From positions 124,001 through 188,000 of the forward strand of contig CAIYLG010000052.1 in assembly GCA_903927025.1 (NCBI GenBank): a DNA stretch of 64,000 nt, given 5' to 3'. Source of the stretch: an uncultured Armatimonadota bacterium. GTDB lineage: Bacteria; Armatimonadota; Fimbriimonadia; Fimbriimonadales; Fimbriimonadaceae. The position numbers and the translations under genes are program-made. The notes under the pieces are model-generated. The model worked only from the letters and a program-made list of their open reading frames with translations. It ran no database searches and was not told the origin of the DNA. Shown piece after piece: positions 52,218-64,000 of the stretch (within the stretch, counting starts at the first letter, position 1; the number at the start of each line of letters is the position of its first letter).

Positions 52218-52418
52218 GTGCCAAAGCCTACAGCCATGCCCGCCCCATTGAGCCCTGGACCGACAAAAGCCGTGAATTTTTCGAGGCTTTTTGGGTGCGC
52301 CGAAGTTTAGCGTCCCCTGAAAACAAATAGCTCCATCGTCTGCTGGGCCTCGTTCGTCTTATCCGCGTTGAGCCTGTAAATGCCGGAACCTACCGGTTGC
52401 ACAGGTTCTGAGGGTTCT

Positions 52419-55400
52419 ATGACATTGAGCTGTATTACACGAGTTTCCGCGCTCCGGGCCTGGATGCTCTGCATCTTGTCTGGCATTTTGATCGCCAGTG
52501 GGTTTGGCCAGGCTGTATCTGGGATATCCATCTCTCCGGCAATCATCAGTGGTGGGGCATCGGCAAAGGGGACAGTTACCCTGACCAAGGCCGCTCCTAC
52601 CGGTGGCTTCACGGTGACGTTGGGAACCAGCCAACCCTTTTTGGCAGCTCCAGCCACGGTTTCCGTGAGCGCCGGTTCCAAGACGGTTCACTTCGAAGTC
52701 TCCACCGATGCCATTAGCAAGACGCAAACGGCAAAGATGACGGCTTCGGGTGGAGGAACGACGAAGTCAGTCACGGTTACCGTCACGGCAGCTCCGCTGT
52801 ATCTCGTCACAGTTTTCCCTCAGGCAGTGGCCGGCGGAAGTGTGACGATTGGTACCGTGAGCTTGGATGGCATTGCCCCGCCCTCAGGCACCGCCGTTCA
52901 GCTTCTTACGAACTCTCCTCTCGCTTCCGTCCCAAGCTCTGTCACAGTCCCTTCGGGTTACTCGTTCACCACATTCCTGGTGTCAACGTCAGCGACAACT
53001 TCTTCGGCTAGGGTCGTCATTACCGCCAAACTTGGACGAACCCTCAAATATGCCGGCCTTCTTATCACCCCGAGCGGACTCGGCGACTTTACGATCTACC
53101 CCGGCTCAGTTGCAGGTGGAGGTACCGCGGTTGGGACCGTAAGTTTAACCGGTTCAGCGCCAGCAGGCGGATACAAGATTGGCATCAACAGCAGCAAGCC
53201 AAGTGTGGCCTCGGTTCCAAGCTCAGTGACGGTTCCAGCAGGCGCGAACTTTGCAACCTTCAACATCACGACGAGCGCGGTGAATCCATCCACCTCCGTG
53301 ATCATCTCGGTATCTGCAAACGGGATAGGCTTGTCCCAGCCGCTGAAGGTTCTCTACATCAATTTGGGCTTCCTGTCCGTGAGCCCAACCTCTGTGGTGG
53401 GTGGCAGCACTTCCACCGGCACCGTTAGCCTAGGCGGTACCGCTCCCGCCCAGGGATACACGGTTGCGCTTTCTAGCAACTTGCCAGGAGTTACGGTGCC
53501 AGCATCGGTCTGGATCGCTGGCGGCGGCACGTCGGCATCCTTCGTGGTTTCCACGAGCCCGGTTCCTGTGAACACGGTCACAACGATTACGGCGGCTGCT
53601 GCGGGCGGATACACAACCGCGAACCTATCGATTAACGCTGCCAGCGTTAGCGGCCTTACATTCAATCAGTCACAGGTTATCGGCGGCGGTTCGGTTACCG
53701 GAACACTTGGTCTCAGCAACCCTGCCCCGGCAGGATTCTCGGTTCAGCTAAGCAGCTCGGATCCCTCGGTGTGGGTGCCGACCAGCGTCACGTTTACAGC
53801 CGGATCAACGACCGCAAACTTCACCGCTATCTCCGTTCCAGTTGCAGTCAATACGCCGGTATCGATCTATGCGACATCGAACAACCAGACTACTTCGGCC
53901 TCGCTCACGGTAGATGCCCCCGGCCTATCGCTCGTCACATTCAATCCAAACTCAGTCATCGCAGGAGTCTCCTCGTACGGAACTGTGAGCCTTACCGGAC
54001 CCGCACCTGCTGGCTTTGTTGTCCAGCTCACCTCGAACAGCCCCGCGCTGATCGTTCCGTCTTCGATCACCTTTACCCAGGGCGCTACCTTCGCAACGTT
54101 CCTGGCTCAGACCGGTCCGATTGCGATCAATCAGACCGATATGGTGACGGCGACTGTGAACGGTGGAACCGCTTCCGGTGCGCTGAACATCGTCACTGGA
54201 CTCAGCAACGGTCAGGGACTTGATCTGACTTCTCCATGGGCACGGTTCCACGGCGATGCCCAGAACAGCGGCCAGACCGAAAACGGGCTTGCCTCGACGG
54301 ACTGGTCTTCAGCGGTTGGATCCAAGATTGAATCCTCACCCGCAGTTGGCCTCGATGGCACGCTCTACTTTGGCGCCGACAACGGAATCATCTACGCCGT
54401 GAACCCGCTGACCGGCGGAATCCTCTGGCAGGTCAAGACAGGTGCTCGAGTGGTTGCCTCTCCGGTCCTTAGCGGAAAGGGGGCCCTGTTCGTTGGCTCT
54501 GCCGACTCCTGCATGTACGCCATTCGGATCACCGATGGAACCATCCTTTGGAAGGTGAAGACGGGAGCACCGATCACCTCCAGCGCGGCTGTCGGAGCGG
54601 ACGGAAACATCTACTTTGGATCTTGGGACCACTATGTGTATGCCCTGAGCCAGAACTCTGGAGCGCTTGTCTGGACGGTGAAGACCTACGGTCCGGTGGA
54701 GTCTTCCCCGAACCTCAGCGTCGATGGCACCCTGTACATTGGCAGCGACGACTTCAATATGTATGCCATCGATACCGTGAAGGCCACGGTGAAGTGGAGC
54801 TTTGCCACTGATGGCTACGTGGCTTCCTCACCCGCCCTCGCAAACGGGTTGGCCTACTTCGGCTCGGACGGTGGCGACTTGTACGCCGTCAACGCCCTGA
54901 ACGGTCAGCTAGTCTGGTTCCTTCCAACCGGCTGGTCCGTATATTCCTCGCCGGCGGTTGATCAGGCGGGCAACGTCTACGTGGGAAGCGAAGACGGCAA
55001 GCTCTACGCTGTCAATGGTGCGAATGGATCGCTGCTGTGGTCCTACACAACCGGAGACGCCATTGAGAGCTCACCGGCAGTAGATCGATCGGGCAACGTC
55101 TACGTCGGCTCATGCGACGGCAACCTGTACGAACTCTCCACCGCAACCGGCCAGGTGGAGTACAAATTCACTGAAGGGTTCGAGTTCCTCTCGTCTCCGA
55201 TCATCGCGGGCACGTCAACGGTGGTGGTTGGAACCGCCGATGGCAAACTGATCCACAAGAATCTGTCTCAGGTCGCTGTCTCCGGATGGGGCAAATTCCA
55301 CGGCAACGCGCAGAACACCGGCCAGTCCGCTGGATCAGGTGCCACTGGCATTCAGCAATGGGCGGCGTCCAACGTTGGCGGAACCTCTTCGCCGACAATT

Positions 55401-56348
55401 GGCGCAGATGGAACGGTCTACTCTACGTATCTGAACAACCTCTACTCGGTGAACTATCACACCGGCGCCACCAACTGGATCTACCAGGCAACCGCGGCAT
55501 GGACGAACTCCTCGCCTGCAGTCGGTACCGATGGCACGCTCTACATCGGCTCCTCCGATGGAGGACTCTATGCGATCAGCGGCCGAACCGGGACCCTAAA
55601 CTGGAAGTTTGCAACCGGCTCCGCAATCGTCTCATCGCCAGTGGTTGCCGCAGATGGCACTGTCTACGTGGGATCGAACGACGGCAACTTCTACGCCGTC
55701 AACGGTATCGATGGAACGCAGAAGTGGAAGGCAGTGACCGGCGGCCCGGTCCAGTCATCTCCTGCGCTGTACGGTGGCATGGTTTACGTTGGCTCAGACG
55801 ACAACAAGGTCTATGCCTTCAACAGCCAAACCGGAAGCACCGTCTTCACTTTCCCCACCGGCAACAAGGTGAAGGGTTCGCCAGCCATGGGTCCTGACGG
55901 AACGCTCTATGTTGGATCAACGGACACCAACCTCTATGCGGTGAACAGCGTGACGGGCGCTCTGATCTGGACCTATGGCACCGGCAACCAGATCGTTTCA
56001 TGCCCGGCCGTCAGCACGGATGGAACGGTCTATGTTTCCTCAACCGACGGCTTCCTTTACTCGATCAACGGCAAGACAGGTGTTCAGAACTGGTACTACA
56101 ACACCGGCACTGCCATCACGGCATCCCCTGTTCTCGGTGCAGATGGCACCGTCTACTTCGGGTTTGCCTACTCCTTCGCTCAAGCGAATAACTTCTTCGC
56201 CCTGAGCTCCGCCGGAAAGTTCCTCTGGAGTCTCAACGTCCCTGGCGCTTCGATGTCGCCCGCCATTGCGGCTGACGGCACGATCTACGTTGGCTCCGTC
56301 CTGACTGCAGGCGGTTCCACCGTAGGCTCGCTCTTAGCCATCCATTAG
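52419..56348 (+). CDS. giant secreted Ig-repeat / double PQQ-propeller protein
   Basis: 1309 residues. After a signal peptide (LRAWMLCILSGILIASGFGQA) come six Ig-like repeats of about 90 residues, each with the pattern V-x-GG ... GTVxL ... AP ... VPSSVTV ... ATF. Two beta-propellers of eight PQQ-type blades each follow (for example ESSPAVGLDGTLYFG). Each propeller is introduced by a similar segment, ARFHGDAQNSGQ and GKFHGNAQNTGQ, so the propeller unit was duplicated. No cofactor-binding residues of PQQ dehydrogenases are evident, so it is probably a surface adhesion or scaffold protein. GAGGG precedes the ATG at 52419. Confidence 0.9.
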   Translation: MTLSCITRVSALRAWMLCILSGILIASGFGQAVSGISISPAIISGGASAKGTVTLTKAAPTGGFTVTLGTSQPFLAAPATVSVSAGSKTVHFEVSTDAISKTQTAKMTASGGGTTKSVTVTVTAAPLYLVTVFPQAVAGGSVTIGTVSLDGIAPPSGTAVQLLTNSPLASVPSSVTVPSGYSFTTFLVSTSATTSSARVVITAKLGRTLKYAGLLITPSGLGDFTIYPGSVAGGGTAVGTVSLTGSAPAGGYKIGINSSKPSVASVPSSVTVPAGANFATFNITTSAVNPSTSVIISVSANGIGLSQPLKVLYINLGFLSVSPTSVVGGSTSTGTVSLGGTAPAQGYTVALSSNLPGVTVPASVWIAGGGTSASFVVSTSPVPVNTVTTITAAAAGGYTTANLSINAASVSGLTFNQSQVIGGGSVTGTLGLSNPAPAGFSVQLSSSDPSVWVPTSVTFTAGSTTANFTAISVPVAVNTPVSIYATSNNQTTSASLTVDAPGLSLVTFNPNSVIAGVSSYGTVSLTGPAPAGFVVQLTSNSPALIVPSSITFTQGATFATFLAQTGPIAINQTDMVTATVNGGTASGALNIVTGLSNGQGLDLTSPWARFHGDAQNSGQTENGLASTDWSSAVGSKIESSPAVGLDGTLYFGADNGIIYAVNPLTGGILWQVKTGARVVASPVLSGKGALFVGSADSCMYAIRITDGTILWKVKTGAPITSSAAVGADGNIYFGSWDHYVYALSQNSGALVWTVKTYGPVESSPNLSVDGTLYIGSDDFNMYAIDTVKATVKWSFATDGYVASSPALANGLAYFGSDGGDLYAVNALNGQLVWFLPTGWSVYSSPAVDQAGNVYVGSEDGKLYAVNGANGSLLWSYTTGDAIESSPAVDRSGNVYVGSCDGNLYELSTATGQVEYKFTEGFEFLSSPIIAGTSTVVVGTADGKLIHKNLSQVAVSGWGKFHGNAQNTGQSAGSGATGIQQWAASNVGGTSSPTIGADGTVYSTYLNNLYSVNYHTGATNWIYQATAAWTNSSPAVGTDGTLYIGSSDGGLYAISGRTGTLNWKFATGSAIVSSPVVAADGTVYVGSNDGNFYAVNGIDGTQKWKAVTGGPVQSSPALYGGMVYVGSDDNKVYAFNSQTGSTVFTFPTGNKVKGSPAMGPDGTLYVGSTDTNLYAVNSVTGALIWTYGTGNQIVSCPAVSTDGTVYVSSTDGFLYSINGKTGVQNWYYNTGTAITASPVLGADGTVYFGFAYSFAQANNFFALSSAGKFLWSLNVPGASMSPAIAADGTIYVGSVLTAGGSTVGSLLAIH

Positions 56349-60842: not shown

Positions 60843-60854
60843 AGTAAATTTACT
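60843..60854. promoter_or_regulatory. AT-rich palindrome upstream of the NERD-GTPase operon
   Basis: AGTAAATTTACT is a perfect 12-base palindrome in a locally AT-rich stretch between two divergent genes, about 80 bases before the GTPase start. Possible operator; no cognate regulator is identified. Confidence 0.35.
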
Positions 60855-60933
60855 GTGACATTAATCTTGTACAAGCGCTTTGAACGGCAACGTCAACTAG
60901 CCAGACAAGAGATTGACGTATATTAGGAACGCA

Positions 60934-63174
60934 GTGCCATCACATACCACCTTCCCCCCCTCCTTCAGAGCTGAAGCGGAACTTTGGAACGATCTTCTCA
61001 AGCTCGACGACGGCTCTCTGCATCTGTGGTACGGGGTAGCACTGGGTTGGGGAATTGAGGCTCAGATCCTCTTGCTGGATTCTCAAGAGGGTGCCTTCTG
61101 CATCGAAGCCAAGTGTCTTCCGCTGAGCCAGATTCGGTTCTTGGATCTTCAGTCGATCGCTCGTGCCGATGGCGTGGCAAGTGTGGCCCCGTTTGGCCAG
61201 GCGATTGAAGTCACACAGTATTTAGCCTCTGTTCTCGACAAGACCTGGGATGATCGACCTGACATTGTTCCTGTCGCGGCATTCCCGTTGATCAGCCGCT
61301 CGGAGTGGAACACCAGGTTTTGCGATGAACCGATCGGAGAGTACGGTGCGAGGTGTCTCCTAATGGAAGATCTCGCAGATCTGGAAACGCTGCGAATGCG
61401 CCTCAAAGAGATCGCAGAAAAGCCAATTAACGGCCGTACCCGAAGTCGAAAATTTAAAGGTCTGGCTGATGGGGTCTTCTCGACGATGGACACAACTCTT
61501 GTCGGGCGAACGCGGCCGATGGTGGACCCGGCCGACAACTCGGAACCAGATGTACTTTCGCTGCTAGACGAAACGATTAAGGTCGTCAAGGGACCCGGTG
61601 CCGCCTACCATTCTGCTGGCCTCGACTCGCTCGTGCTCTGGAAAACAGCGCTCTCTCATGTGAACGAACGACTTAGGATCAGCGTCGTCGGGGAGTTCAA
61701 GTCAGGCAAATCCTCGCTTATCAACGCTATCCTCGGCTGCGACGCCTGCTACGTTGACGAATTTGAGGCAACCACGATCAACGCGACATACAGGTCGGGT
61801 CCTGCGGAGAAAGTAGAAGTTCTCAACCAGCAGAACATTGAAGAGACGTGGACCCTTCAGGAGTTCTTGGAGCGATGCGCAAACCGTGACCTTGGTGATG
61901 TCCGCCAGGTCGTCGTCACTTTGCCCACAAAGCTCCCATTCGATCTTGTCGACAGTCCTGGATTGGGCACTCGAACTGAGGGGCATGCCGCTGAAGCGGA
62001 AATGGAAATCCGTCGAACCGATCTCCTCCTTTGGACGGTCGACTCGAACGACCCAGGAAGTGCCCGTGAAGGCGCCTTTATTCAGCGAGCCCGAGAGGTG
62101 GGACTGCCCCTCATTGTGCTCCTAACGAAATGCGATCAGCTCGCACCAGACGAAGTCGCAGCGTTAGTGGAATATGTATCCAACGAGACCGGCATCCCTA
62201 AACACGATGTGCTGCCCGTCTCCGCGTACGACCACGCCGCCGGTAAGTCTAAAGAGATTGATCATTTGGTTCAGCGCCTCAACAGTGCGGCACATCAAAA
62301 AGTCGAATTTCAGGCGGATGCCTACGAAGCAAAGCTTCGGGAAGCGATAGACGGGAGCATTTCCACCCTGCGGTTCCTTGTCGAGATCAATGCGCCCAAC
62401 GCACGGTATCTCGCCGCGGAGCGTGGCTATCTCGAAACCAGCGCCCTGGGGATCGGGACTGCCGCGAAGCGAGAGTGGATTCGCGCCCTGCGTGAGGAGT
62501 GCGCCCAAGTCGCCCATTCGATCGCAAGCAAATCGATTGAAGACGCCGACGTTGTGGAACTTATGCTTCGCAAAGCACTTCCCCCAGCTGTGAACCGAGC
62601 GACGACCAATTTCATGCAGACCCTCAGGAAACTCGTGCGTGACGAGTGGCGAAATGCTTTGGAGCAGCGGTGCCGGGACCTAGAGGCACGCCTCACCGAG
62701 TTGACTATCACGCGTCCGGATGCAAAGGCTGACCTCGATTTCCTTCGCGATGAGGCTGAGGCATTCCGCATTCGCGCAGAGGTCGTATTTGCCGAAACGG
62801 ATCCAGCCCCAATCGACAACCGACTCTTGATTGTTGGACTCGGTGCCGCTGCCTCCGTGATCACCGTTTCAATTCTTCCGATCGCCGTTGCTGGCGTCGT
62901 CGCCGCAGTTGCTGTGCGTCAGAAGAAAGGGCTCACCGGAAGCGGAGCCGATTCTGTGATCGCCGCCCACATCGAGGAGGCGCTGATCGCCGGATTCGAA
63001 AAGGTTGCCGACCAATTCGAAAGAGCCATTGAGCGAATCGTCATTGAGGTTGCTCAACGATCTCTGATCACGCTCGTCAACCGGCGCGGCGGACCGGATT
63101 ATCAAACCATACAGGTGATCGAAAGGCGAGGATGCCAGCTAATGGATGACCTCGTCTCCGTCCGACGATGCTGA
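60934..63174 (+). CDS. NERD-domain dynamin-like GTPase
   Basis: 746 residues. Residues 10-120 resemble the nuclease-related NERD domain (WGIEAQILLLDSQEGAFCIEAK, with the conserved acidic residue and ExK). A dynamin-type GTPase follows: GEFKSGKSS (P-loop, about 253-261), LVDSPGLGTRTEG (G3) and LTKCD (G4). Long helices lead to a glycine/alanine-rich hydrophobic pair (LLIVGLGAAASVITVSILPI and VAGVVAAVAV, about 630-661), like the membrane paddle of bacterial dynamins. The GTG at 60934 has AGGA five bases upstream; the TTG at 60913 is weaker. The next GTPase overlaps its end, so they form an operon. Membrane-acting stress or defence protein is an inference. Confidence 0.82.
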   Translation: MPSHTTFPPSFRAEAELWNDLLKLDDGSLHLWYGVALGWGIEAQILLLDSQEGAFCIEAKCLPLSQIRFLDLQSIARADGVASVAPFGQAIEVTQYLASVLDKTWDDRPDIVPVAAFPLISRSEWNTRFCDEPIGEYGARCLLMEDLADLETLRMRLKEIAEKPINGRTRSRKFKGLADGVFSTMDTTLVGRTRPMVDPADNSEPDVLSLLDETIKVVKGPGAAYHSAGLDSLVLWKTALSHVNERLRISVVGEFKSGKSSLINAILGCDACYVDEFEATTINATYRSGPAEKVEVLNQQNIEETWTLQEFLERCANRDLGDVRQVVVTLPTKLPFDLVDSPGLGTRTEGHAAEAEMEIRRTDLLLWTVDSNDPGSAREGAFIQRAREVGLPLIVLLTKCDQLAPDEVAALVEYVSNETGIPKHDVLPVSAYDHAAGKSKEIDHLVQRLNSAAHQKVEFQADAYEAKLREAIDGSISTLRFLVEINAPNARYLAAERGYLETSALGIGTAAKREWIRALREECAQVAHSIASKSIEDADVVELMLRKALPPAVNRATTNFMQTLRKLVRDEWRNALEQRCRDLEARLTELTITRPDAKADLDFLRDEAEAFRIRAEVVFAETDPAPIDNRLLIVGLGAAASVITVSILPIAVAGVVAAVAVRQKKGLTGSGADSVIAAHIEEALIAGFEKVADQFERAIERIVIEVAQRSLITLVNRRGGPDYQTIQVIERRGCQLMDDLVSVRRC

Positions 63175-64000
63175 CCGAGAGTCCACTAAGACGGGTCGTT
63201 TCCACTTTCGATCTCAGAGAGCATGCCGACCGGTTAGATGACCGAGAACGCGATGCGTCTCTTGGCCTAATTGTGATGGTCATAGGGGCTGGCAATTTTG
63301 GCAAGTCCAGCCTTATCAACGCGCTGTGCGGACGGGAGGTCGCACCCGTTTCCGTGATTCCTAAGACGTTTAAAATCGACGTCTTTTCCTACGGCAGAGC
63401 CGGAACAGCACTTGTCCGAAGGGTTGGTGAGGCCCGTCCCAACGAGATGACGACGGAGCATGCCCGGCTCGTCGAGTCGGAGGCGGAGCGGCAGTTCAGC
63501 GACCGCAATCAGGTGCGCCTCGCCGAAATCATCTGGCGATATGAGAACCTCAACCTGCCGAGAGGCATTTCCCTCGTGGACACGCCAGGCATCTCCCAGG
63601 CCATCGGAAGTGGGGCGAAAGGTATTTCGCTCACAACAGTTCTGGGAAGCACATTTGAGGTGGATGAAGTTTGGGCTCGGTGGTTTCACCGCGCAGACCT
63701 TGTGCTGTGGGCGTTTTGTGCGAACAAGATGGAAGATGCCGACACGCAAAGTGCCCTTGAATCTGCACTGAAGCTCTTTGATAAGCCAATCCTTCCTATC
63801 GCCACAAAAGCTGACCTGATTCCCCAGGAGCGGTGGCCCGAAATTCACGAGCGGTTCAATGCCGTGTACGGCCCCATCCTAGGCGAGAGACAGGCTGGTG
63901 AGCTGCAGCTGACCGTGTGTGGAGGGAAGCGCCCAGAACTGTCAGGGACAGGAATCAAGGAACTGCGAGACACCCTGCTTAAAGTCGGCTCAGAAGCAAT
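63168..64000 (+). CDS. second dynamin-like/Era-like GTPase, C-terminus beyond window
   Basis: At least 277 residues. GAGNFGKSSLINALCG is the P-loop, a threonine in PKTFKID could be G2, LVDTPGISQAIG is G3 and ATKADLIP is G4. The ATG at 63168 overlaps the stop of the NERD-GTPase gene, indicating coupled translation. Between G1 and G3 it has an insertion of about 70 residues (TTEHARLVESEAERQFSDRN), and after G3 another (EVDEVWARWFHRADLVLWAFC). Pairing of two different GTPases is typical of heteromeric bacterial dynamin systems. Confidence 0.8.
   Translation, partial: MLTESPLRRVVSTFDLREHADRLDDRERDASLGLIVMVIGAGNFGKSSLINALCGREVAPVSVIPKTFKIDVFSYGRAGTALVRRVGEARPNEMTTEHARLVESEAERQFSDRNQVRLAEIIWRYENLNLPRGISLVDTPGISQAIGSGAKGISLTTVLGSTFEVDEVWARWFHRADLVLWAFCANKMEDADTQSALESALKLFDKPILPIATKADLIPQERWPEIHERFNAVYGPILGERQAGELQLTVCGGKRPELSGTGIKELRDTLLKVGSEA

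Follow-up and report, generated by a model that had tools for sequence, protein, structure and literature searches.

On sequence grounds, it was established that two overlapping genes in the window (the whole 64,000-nucleotide stretch of DNA that was analysed, G000:C52:124001-188000, from an uncultured Armatimonadota bacterium with an assembly of 5.25 Mb and 98.4% completeness) encode two intact dynamin-type GTPases, A and B, which belong to separate clades and are inherited together, the first of them carrying an N-terminal NERD-type domain. The reading favoured on balance is that A and B work at the membrane as a heterotypic pair of dynamins, in which the NERD domain of A would now serve for binding or sensing rather than for cutting. 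For the fusion of NERD to a dynamin no earlier description was found among the open-access papers searched, in which the four that contain both words are unrelated by title; the pairing of dynamins is itself known. Since the contig was read past the window edge, gene B was covered in full, and the relevant features are as follows (positions are those of the window).

60843 to 60854, no strand: palindrome AGTAAATTTACT in the upstream gap, at chance level.
60934 to 63174, plus strand: gene A, the NERD-dynamin fusion, 746 amino acids from GTG (open reading frame, Dynamin_N match, ortholog in genome G028).
60934 to 61428, plus strand: NERD-type PD-(D/E)xK-like domain of A, about residues 1-165 (leave-out profile).
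61063 to 61065, plus strand: glutamine codon CAG at the catalytic aspartate position of NERD (nine-row NERD alignment).
61105 to 61113, plus strand: retained E-x-K of the window NERD (E65/K67, numbered from TTG; nine-row alignment).
61666 to 62238, plus strand: dynamin-type G domain of A (Pfam; G1 GEFKSGKSS, G3 DSPG, G4 TKCD).
62818 to 62922, plus strand: hydrophobic paddle-like segment of A, residues 629-663 (Kyte-Doolittle peak 2.53).
63168 to 63174, plus strand: 7-nucleotide overlap of A stop and B start (sequence).
63168 to 64000, plus strand: first 277 codons of gene B, the second dynamin-like GTPase (open reading frame, Dynamin_N match, ortholog at 57% identity).
About 65340 to 65474 in window-equivalent numbering, plus strand: putative C-terminal transmembrane hairpin of B, hydrophobic segments at residues 725-769 (hydropathy).

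The operon-like layout proposed in a preliminary description of this DNA, with two genes on the same strand and the start of B overlapping the stop of A, was upheld by the 7-nucleotide overlap, which recurs in the ortholog of the same-genus relative G028 (L012:10828-10834) and is consistent with translational coupling. Read beyond 64 kb, gene B runs from the ATG at 63168 to C52:189672 (window-equivalent 65672; L002:3168-5672), giving a complete protein of 834 amino acids with the predicted hairpin at its C-terminus. The start of A was listed by the open reading frame program as the TTG at 60913 (753 amino acids); the GTG at 60934 is preferred because homologs start at its position (MPSHT, MPAHT, MPLYG) and because it is preceded by AGGA, a Shine-Dalgarno-like sequence.

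The pair is flanked on its 5' side by a divergent class-V aminotransferase gene and on its 3' side by a same-strand UvrA-like gene. Its GC content is that of the surroundings, with a somewhat lower GC3 (0.61 vs 0.67), and self-matches, sought as flanking repeats or an insertion boundary, were confined to the interior of the two genes. A scan for sigma-70-type promoters found none, and terminator-like sites did not exceed shuffle level. The AT-rich 12-bp palindrome AGTAAATTTACT reported upstream does exist, at a frequency expected by chance: perfect 12-bp palindromes number 19 in the window against about 16 expected (4^-6 per position), and the 200 bases that precede the G028 ortholog contain none, so the candidate was rejected as a regulatory site. 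Elsewhere in the window, positions 52380-56348 encode a 1322-residue repeat protein with, in appearance, Ig-like and PQQ-like repeats, and similar repeat open reading frames occur in G028 and G029.

That A is a dynamin-like GTPase bearing a hydrophobic paddle was borne out by a Pfam Dynamin_N match (E 5e-12) and by the segment at residues 629-663, and the G1, G3 and G4 motifs are all intact. An AlphaFold model of A, based on a three-row alignment and with a mean pLDDT of 55.5 (the G domain usable, the NERD region at about 24-43), placed long helices at residues 467-725, after the G domain, as a helical neck or trunk. Matches to solved structures cover residues 205-753, which is to say not NERD, and comprise a Foldseek match to BDLP over G domain and trunk (E 1.1e-15) and VIA-align Z scores of 17-21 to mitofusin/Fzo1, BDLP, IniA and Cj-DLP, with a maximum of 21.1 for Fzo1. 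Identity between A and its G028 ortholog is 58-59% over the whole protein, 46.7% in NERD and 65% in the G domain, and is highest of any block of A, at 87.5%, across the paddle (residues 626-665). From hydropathy alone, the paddle is predicted to be the membrane-active tip.

Gene B had been described as a different GTPase, a claim that stands insofar as B is a distinct second GTPase and needs amending in that B, too, is dynamin-like (Dynamin_N, E 4e-13), with intact G motifs (GAGNFGKSS, DTPG and TKAD). The AlphaFold model of the B ortholog, with a mean pLDDT of 37.6, was unusable for reading the fold. A VIT-domain protein (PF08487, E 7.9e-16) is encoded directly 3' of B in G028 (L012:13415-15277). 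The B homolog of G001 (L014:10327-13093) lies in two open reading frames of 511 and 400 codons, either a natural split, reminiscent of LeoB/LeoC, or a frameshift.

Among known systems, LeoA/LeoBC of E. coli ('Eleos'; PMC4159319) resembles A and B in its tandem dynamin-like proteins, hydrophobic paddle and predicted membrane anchor on one partner; no NERD module is described for it there, and LeoBC, which is split, precedes LeoA, whereas here A comes first and is followed by an intact B with the C-terminal anchor. PADLOC profiles of these proteins gave low scores, 30.1 bits (LeoBC) and 29.9 bits (LeoA) with A and 20.9 bits (LeoA) with B. Cj-DLP1 and Cj-DLP2 of Campylobacter (PMC6104087; 5owv/5oxf) likewise constitute a side-by-side heterotypic dynamin pair, which aligns with A over 483-499 residues (Z 17.6, identity 12-13%) but for which a NERD domain has not been reported. 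Nostoc BDLP1, mycobacterial IniA and mitofusin/Fzo1 share with A a dynamin-like G domain, helical trunk and membrane-active tip, and differ from it in having no NERD. The combination had been called uncommon; this applies to the NERD fusion, which is unusual, and to that feature only, since paired bacterial dynamins are common (PMC6104087).

The N-terminal domain of window A is left unnamed by Pfam, NCBIfam and PADLOC profiles, and Pfam NERD (PF08378) gave no match to it either with the full-length protein at E<=1 or with the N-terminus alone at E<=10; scores for the corresponding N-termini were 17.8 bits in the G028 ortholog and 38.6 bits in a divergent G028 paralog, against a cut-off of 22.1. 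A leave-out profile was built from the N-termini of the more divergent (type II) A' proteins and of NERD-helicases, with the window copy and its ortholog excluded, and matched the N-terminus of window A at E = 2.5e-25 (best of 20,000 shuffles, 0.09). The NERD assignment in the preliminary description is thus right by descent. The predicted order of elements in this region, of low confidence in the AlphaFold model, is helix-strand-strand-strand-helix-strand.

The nuclease-like character attributed to the domain at the same time is probably not to be taken literally for the window copy, in which the catalytic aspartate has been lost to glutamine. Alignment of nine NERD domains placed the aspartate in eight, the window copy alone having glutamine; its catalytic set of E, D and E-x-K (and Q) is consequently incomplete, with E, E-x-K and Q retained in an intact reading frame. 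Because of this replacement, DNA cutting by the window NERD is judged unlikely from its residues, and it could be a decaying domain without function. The G028 ortholog retains the aspartate and has leucine at the motif glutamine. The full catalytic motif is retained in the NERD of divergent relatives, and the intact domain of the type II proteins may still cut.

The same N-terminal NERD subtype is found in NERD-helicases (PADLOC C3a187, 'NERD+UvrD'; a NERD-DEAD/DEAH helicase of Pimelobacter plasmids), where it is joined to a helicase instead of a dynamin and where aspartate and E-x-K are intact in the four aligned. The A N-terminal profile matches NERD-helicases in G123, G124, G125 and G007, and the NERD of the G028 paralog is 37% identical to that of the Pimelobacter plasmid protein. 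In G007 (L030:1203-6344), as judged by eye, a Cas9-like open reading frame of 1041 residues, close to the NERD-helicase gene, is followed by two smaller cas-like frames and a repeat array.

The genome survey confirmed the expected co-occurrence of A with the second GTPase: B was present in 4 of 291 genomes of the phylum (G000, the window genome, with G028, G001 and G233) and A adjoined it in all four, in the order A-B in the first two and B-A in the others. Within the genus, the pair was found in 2 of 20 genomes. NERD is present on the type I A proteins of G000 and G028 and missing from those of G001 and G233, which are still paired with B. G028, G142, G138 and G084 carry a type II pair, A' and B' accompanied by a small coiled-coil-like protein, and G074 carries A' with B'; NERD is present on the A' of G028, and in G146 an N-terminal NERD fragment lies behind B', cut by the contig end. 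In a G-domain tree, read solely for groupings within types because of long branches converging where A and B divide, A and B formed separate clades (support 99/97), the window and G028 proteins grouped together among both A and B, and NERD-bearing proteins fell within both the type I and the type II A groups. NERD accordingly behaves, in these comparisons, as an optional module, since it is found on two of the four type I pairs and recurs on divergent type II proteins, and it was probably gained or lost more than once.

Several observations were made on the surroundings and ends of these relatives. In G146, the NERD N-terminus (L026:1-808) and an A' body (L066:1805-4117) both run up to a contig edge; no overlap in sequence was found between the two, which may be parts of a single gene broken there. 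The A' body is followed by a gene for a radical SAM protein and by a kinase fragment. The C-terminal region of the A' proteins (about 170-200 residues, e.g. L013:7207-7800) is alike among them by eye, and the one copy searched had no Pfam match at E<=0.05. Genes for VWA, PP2C and kinase proteins stand just before the dynamin pair in G138 (L068:1589-6895), resembling the TerY-P triad, and PP2C and kinase genes just before that of G233 (L065:237-2009). Beside the type II NERD-dynamin pair of G028:C153 (L013:930-4238) lie an AAA ATPase (AAA_22) and a transposase of the Mu type (Mu-transpos_C, rve), together with a third frame that looks like a tyrosine recombinase, genes which may represent a transposon carrying the pair.

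A scan of genome contigs with two short patterns brought up two Armatimonadetes pairs, one lone GTPase from a deltaproteobacterium and a match of 32 residues in a HydF-like protein, and nothing else. Three scans of viral contigs found no relatives. Phage records gave no match to A and one to the paralog, in the G domain only, and plasmids gave partial matches to A, none extending to the NERD region.

In the favoured reading of a heterotypic membrane pair, B would be anchored in the inner membrane and would recruit A, pairing occurring through the GTP-bound G domains, and A would insert its paddle into the membrane. Should phage, toxic compounds or another agent damage the envelope, the A-B assembly would then tether, seal or remodel the membrane. 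The non-cutting NERD would bind nucleic acid or a partner, and so might connect the remodelling machinery with DNA located at the membrane, or else gate its assembly. Counted in favour of this reading is also that DynA of B. subtilis delays phage lysis (PMC8844932).

That the pair is instead an anti-phage system of the Eleos or dynamin kind is possible rather than probable. NERD would then be a nucleic-acid effector or sensor, and the GTPase assembly that infection triggers at the membrane would be linked with attacking phage DNA or detecting it. Eleos has been described as a dynamin-like defence system (PMC11811056), and NERD (PF08378) is among the domains given for two kinds of defence system, Mokosh type I and Nhi-like (PMC10952713), which share it with A; that paper mentions no dynamin, and by comparison no helicase gene lies directly beside the window pair. 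The weak LeoA/LeoBC profile matches given above point the same way, as do a patchy distribution and the gene order 3' of uvrA, which is common to the close relatives G029 and G026, both of which lack the pair at that place. In G028 the pair occupies another genomic location. Support also comes from pairs in relatives that adjoin PP2C and kinase, or VWA, PP2C and kinase, a TerY-P-like set of which the triad is associated with restriction systems (PMC11090510), and from the type II NERD pair, which has Mu-type transposase and AAA genes next to it. However, the window pair does not lie within a defence island. Its near neighbours are non-defence genes, the ten flanking proteins including no defence gene beyond shared-superfamily matches (the aminotransferase to SspA/DndA, the UvrA-like protein to Mad3), and the TerY-P-like set (VWA, PP2C, Ser/Thr kinase) is not beside the pair, which adjoins the aminotransferase and UvrA-like genes. 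Relatives were also absent from the viral contigs and matches to A from the phage records, and a nuclease effector is unlikely in the window copy, its NERD aspartate being lost. A defence role of the window pair remains plausible.

Rather unlikely is a function in general membrane maintenance, with A and B as a stress-response pair like B. subtilis DynA or IniA and with NERD as a leftover protein-binding fold having no nucleic-acid role. The lower conservation of NERD relative to the G domain, its lost catalytic residue, the lost motif glutamine of an ortholog that retains the aspartate, and the continued pairing with B of A relatives without NERD would all fit such a role. Against it, occurrence in four genomes of the phylum and two of the genus is too sporadic for housekeeping, and NERD persists on two divergent A types, in the window with its frame, E and E-x-K intact. 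A decaying or chance assembly of unrelated GTPase genes, to which the lost aspartate and the rarity of the pair might point, is scarcely credible, being contradicted by an A-B adjacency that is kept in each of the four B-bearing genomes, by the same overlap and partners at a different genomic place in G028, by intact frames and GTPase motifs, and by A and B trees that each group the same two genomes.

A broader proposal, distinctly unlikely at present, is that of a class of dynamin pairs in which NERD would couple nucleic-acid sensing or cleavage to GTP-driven remodelling, sometimes under control of a TerY-P-like kinase and phosphatase, the window copy having traded cutting for binding. Bacterial dynamins and NERD domains have each separately been tied to phage defence and, if the fusion operates as one machine, it would provide a direct link between nucleic-acid recognition and bacterial membrane remodelling, for which the NERD-bearing, NERD-degenerate and NERD-less relatives constitute a natural comparison set for the contribution of the module.
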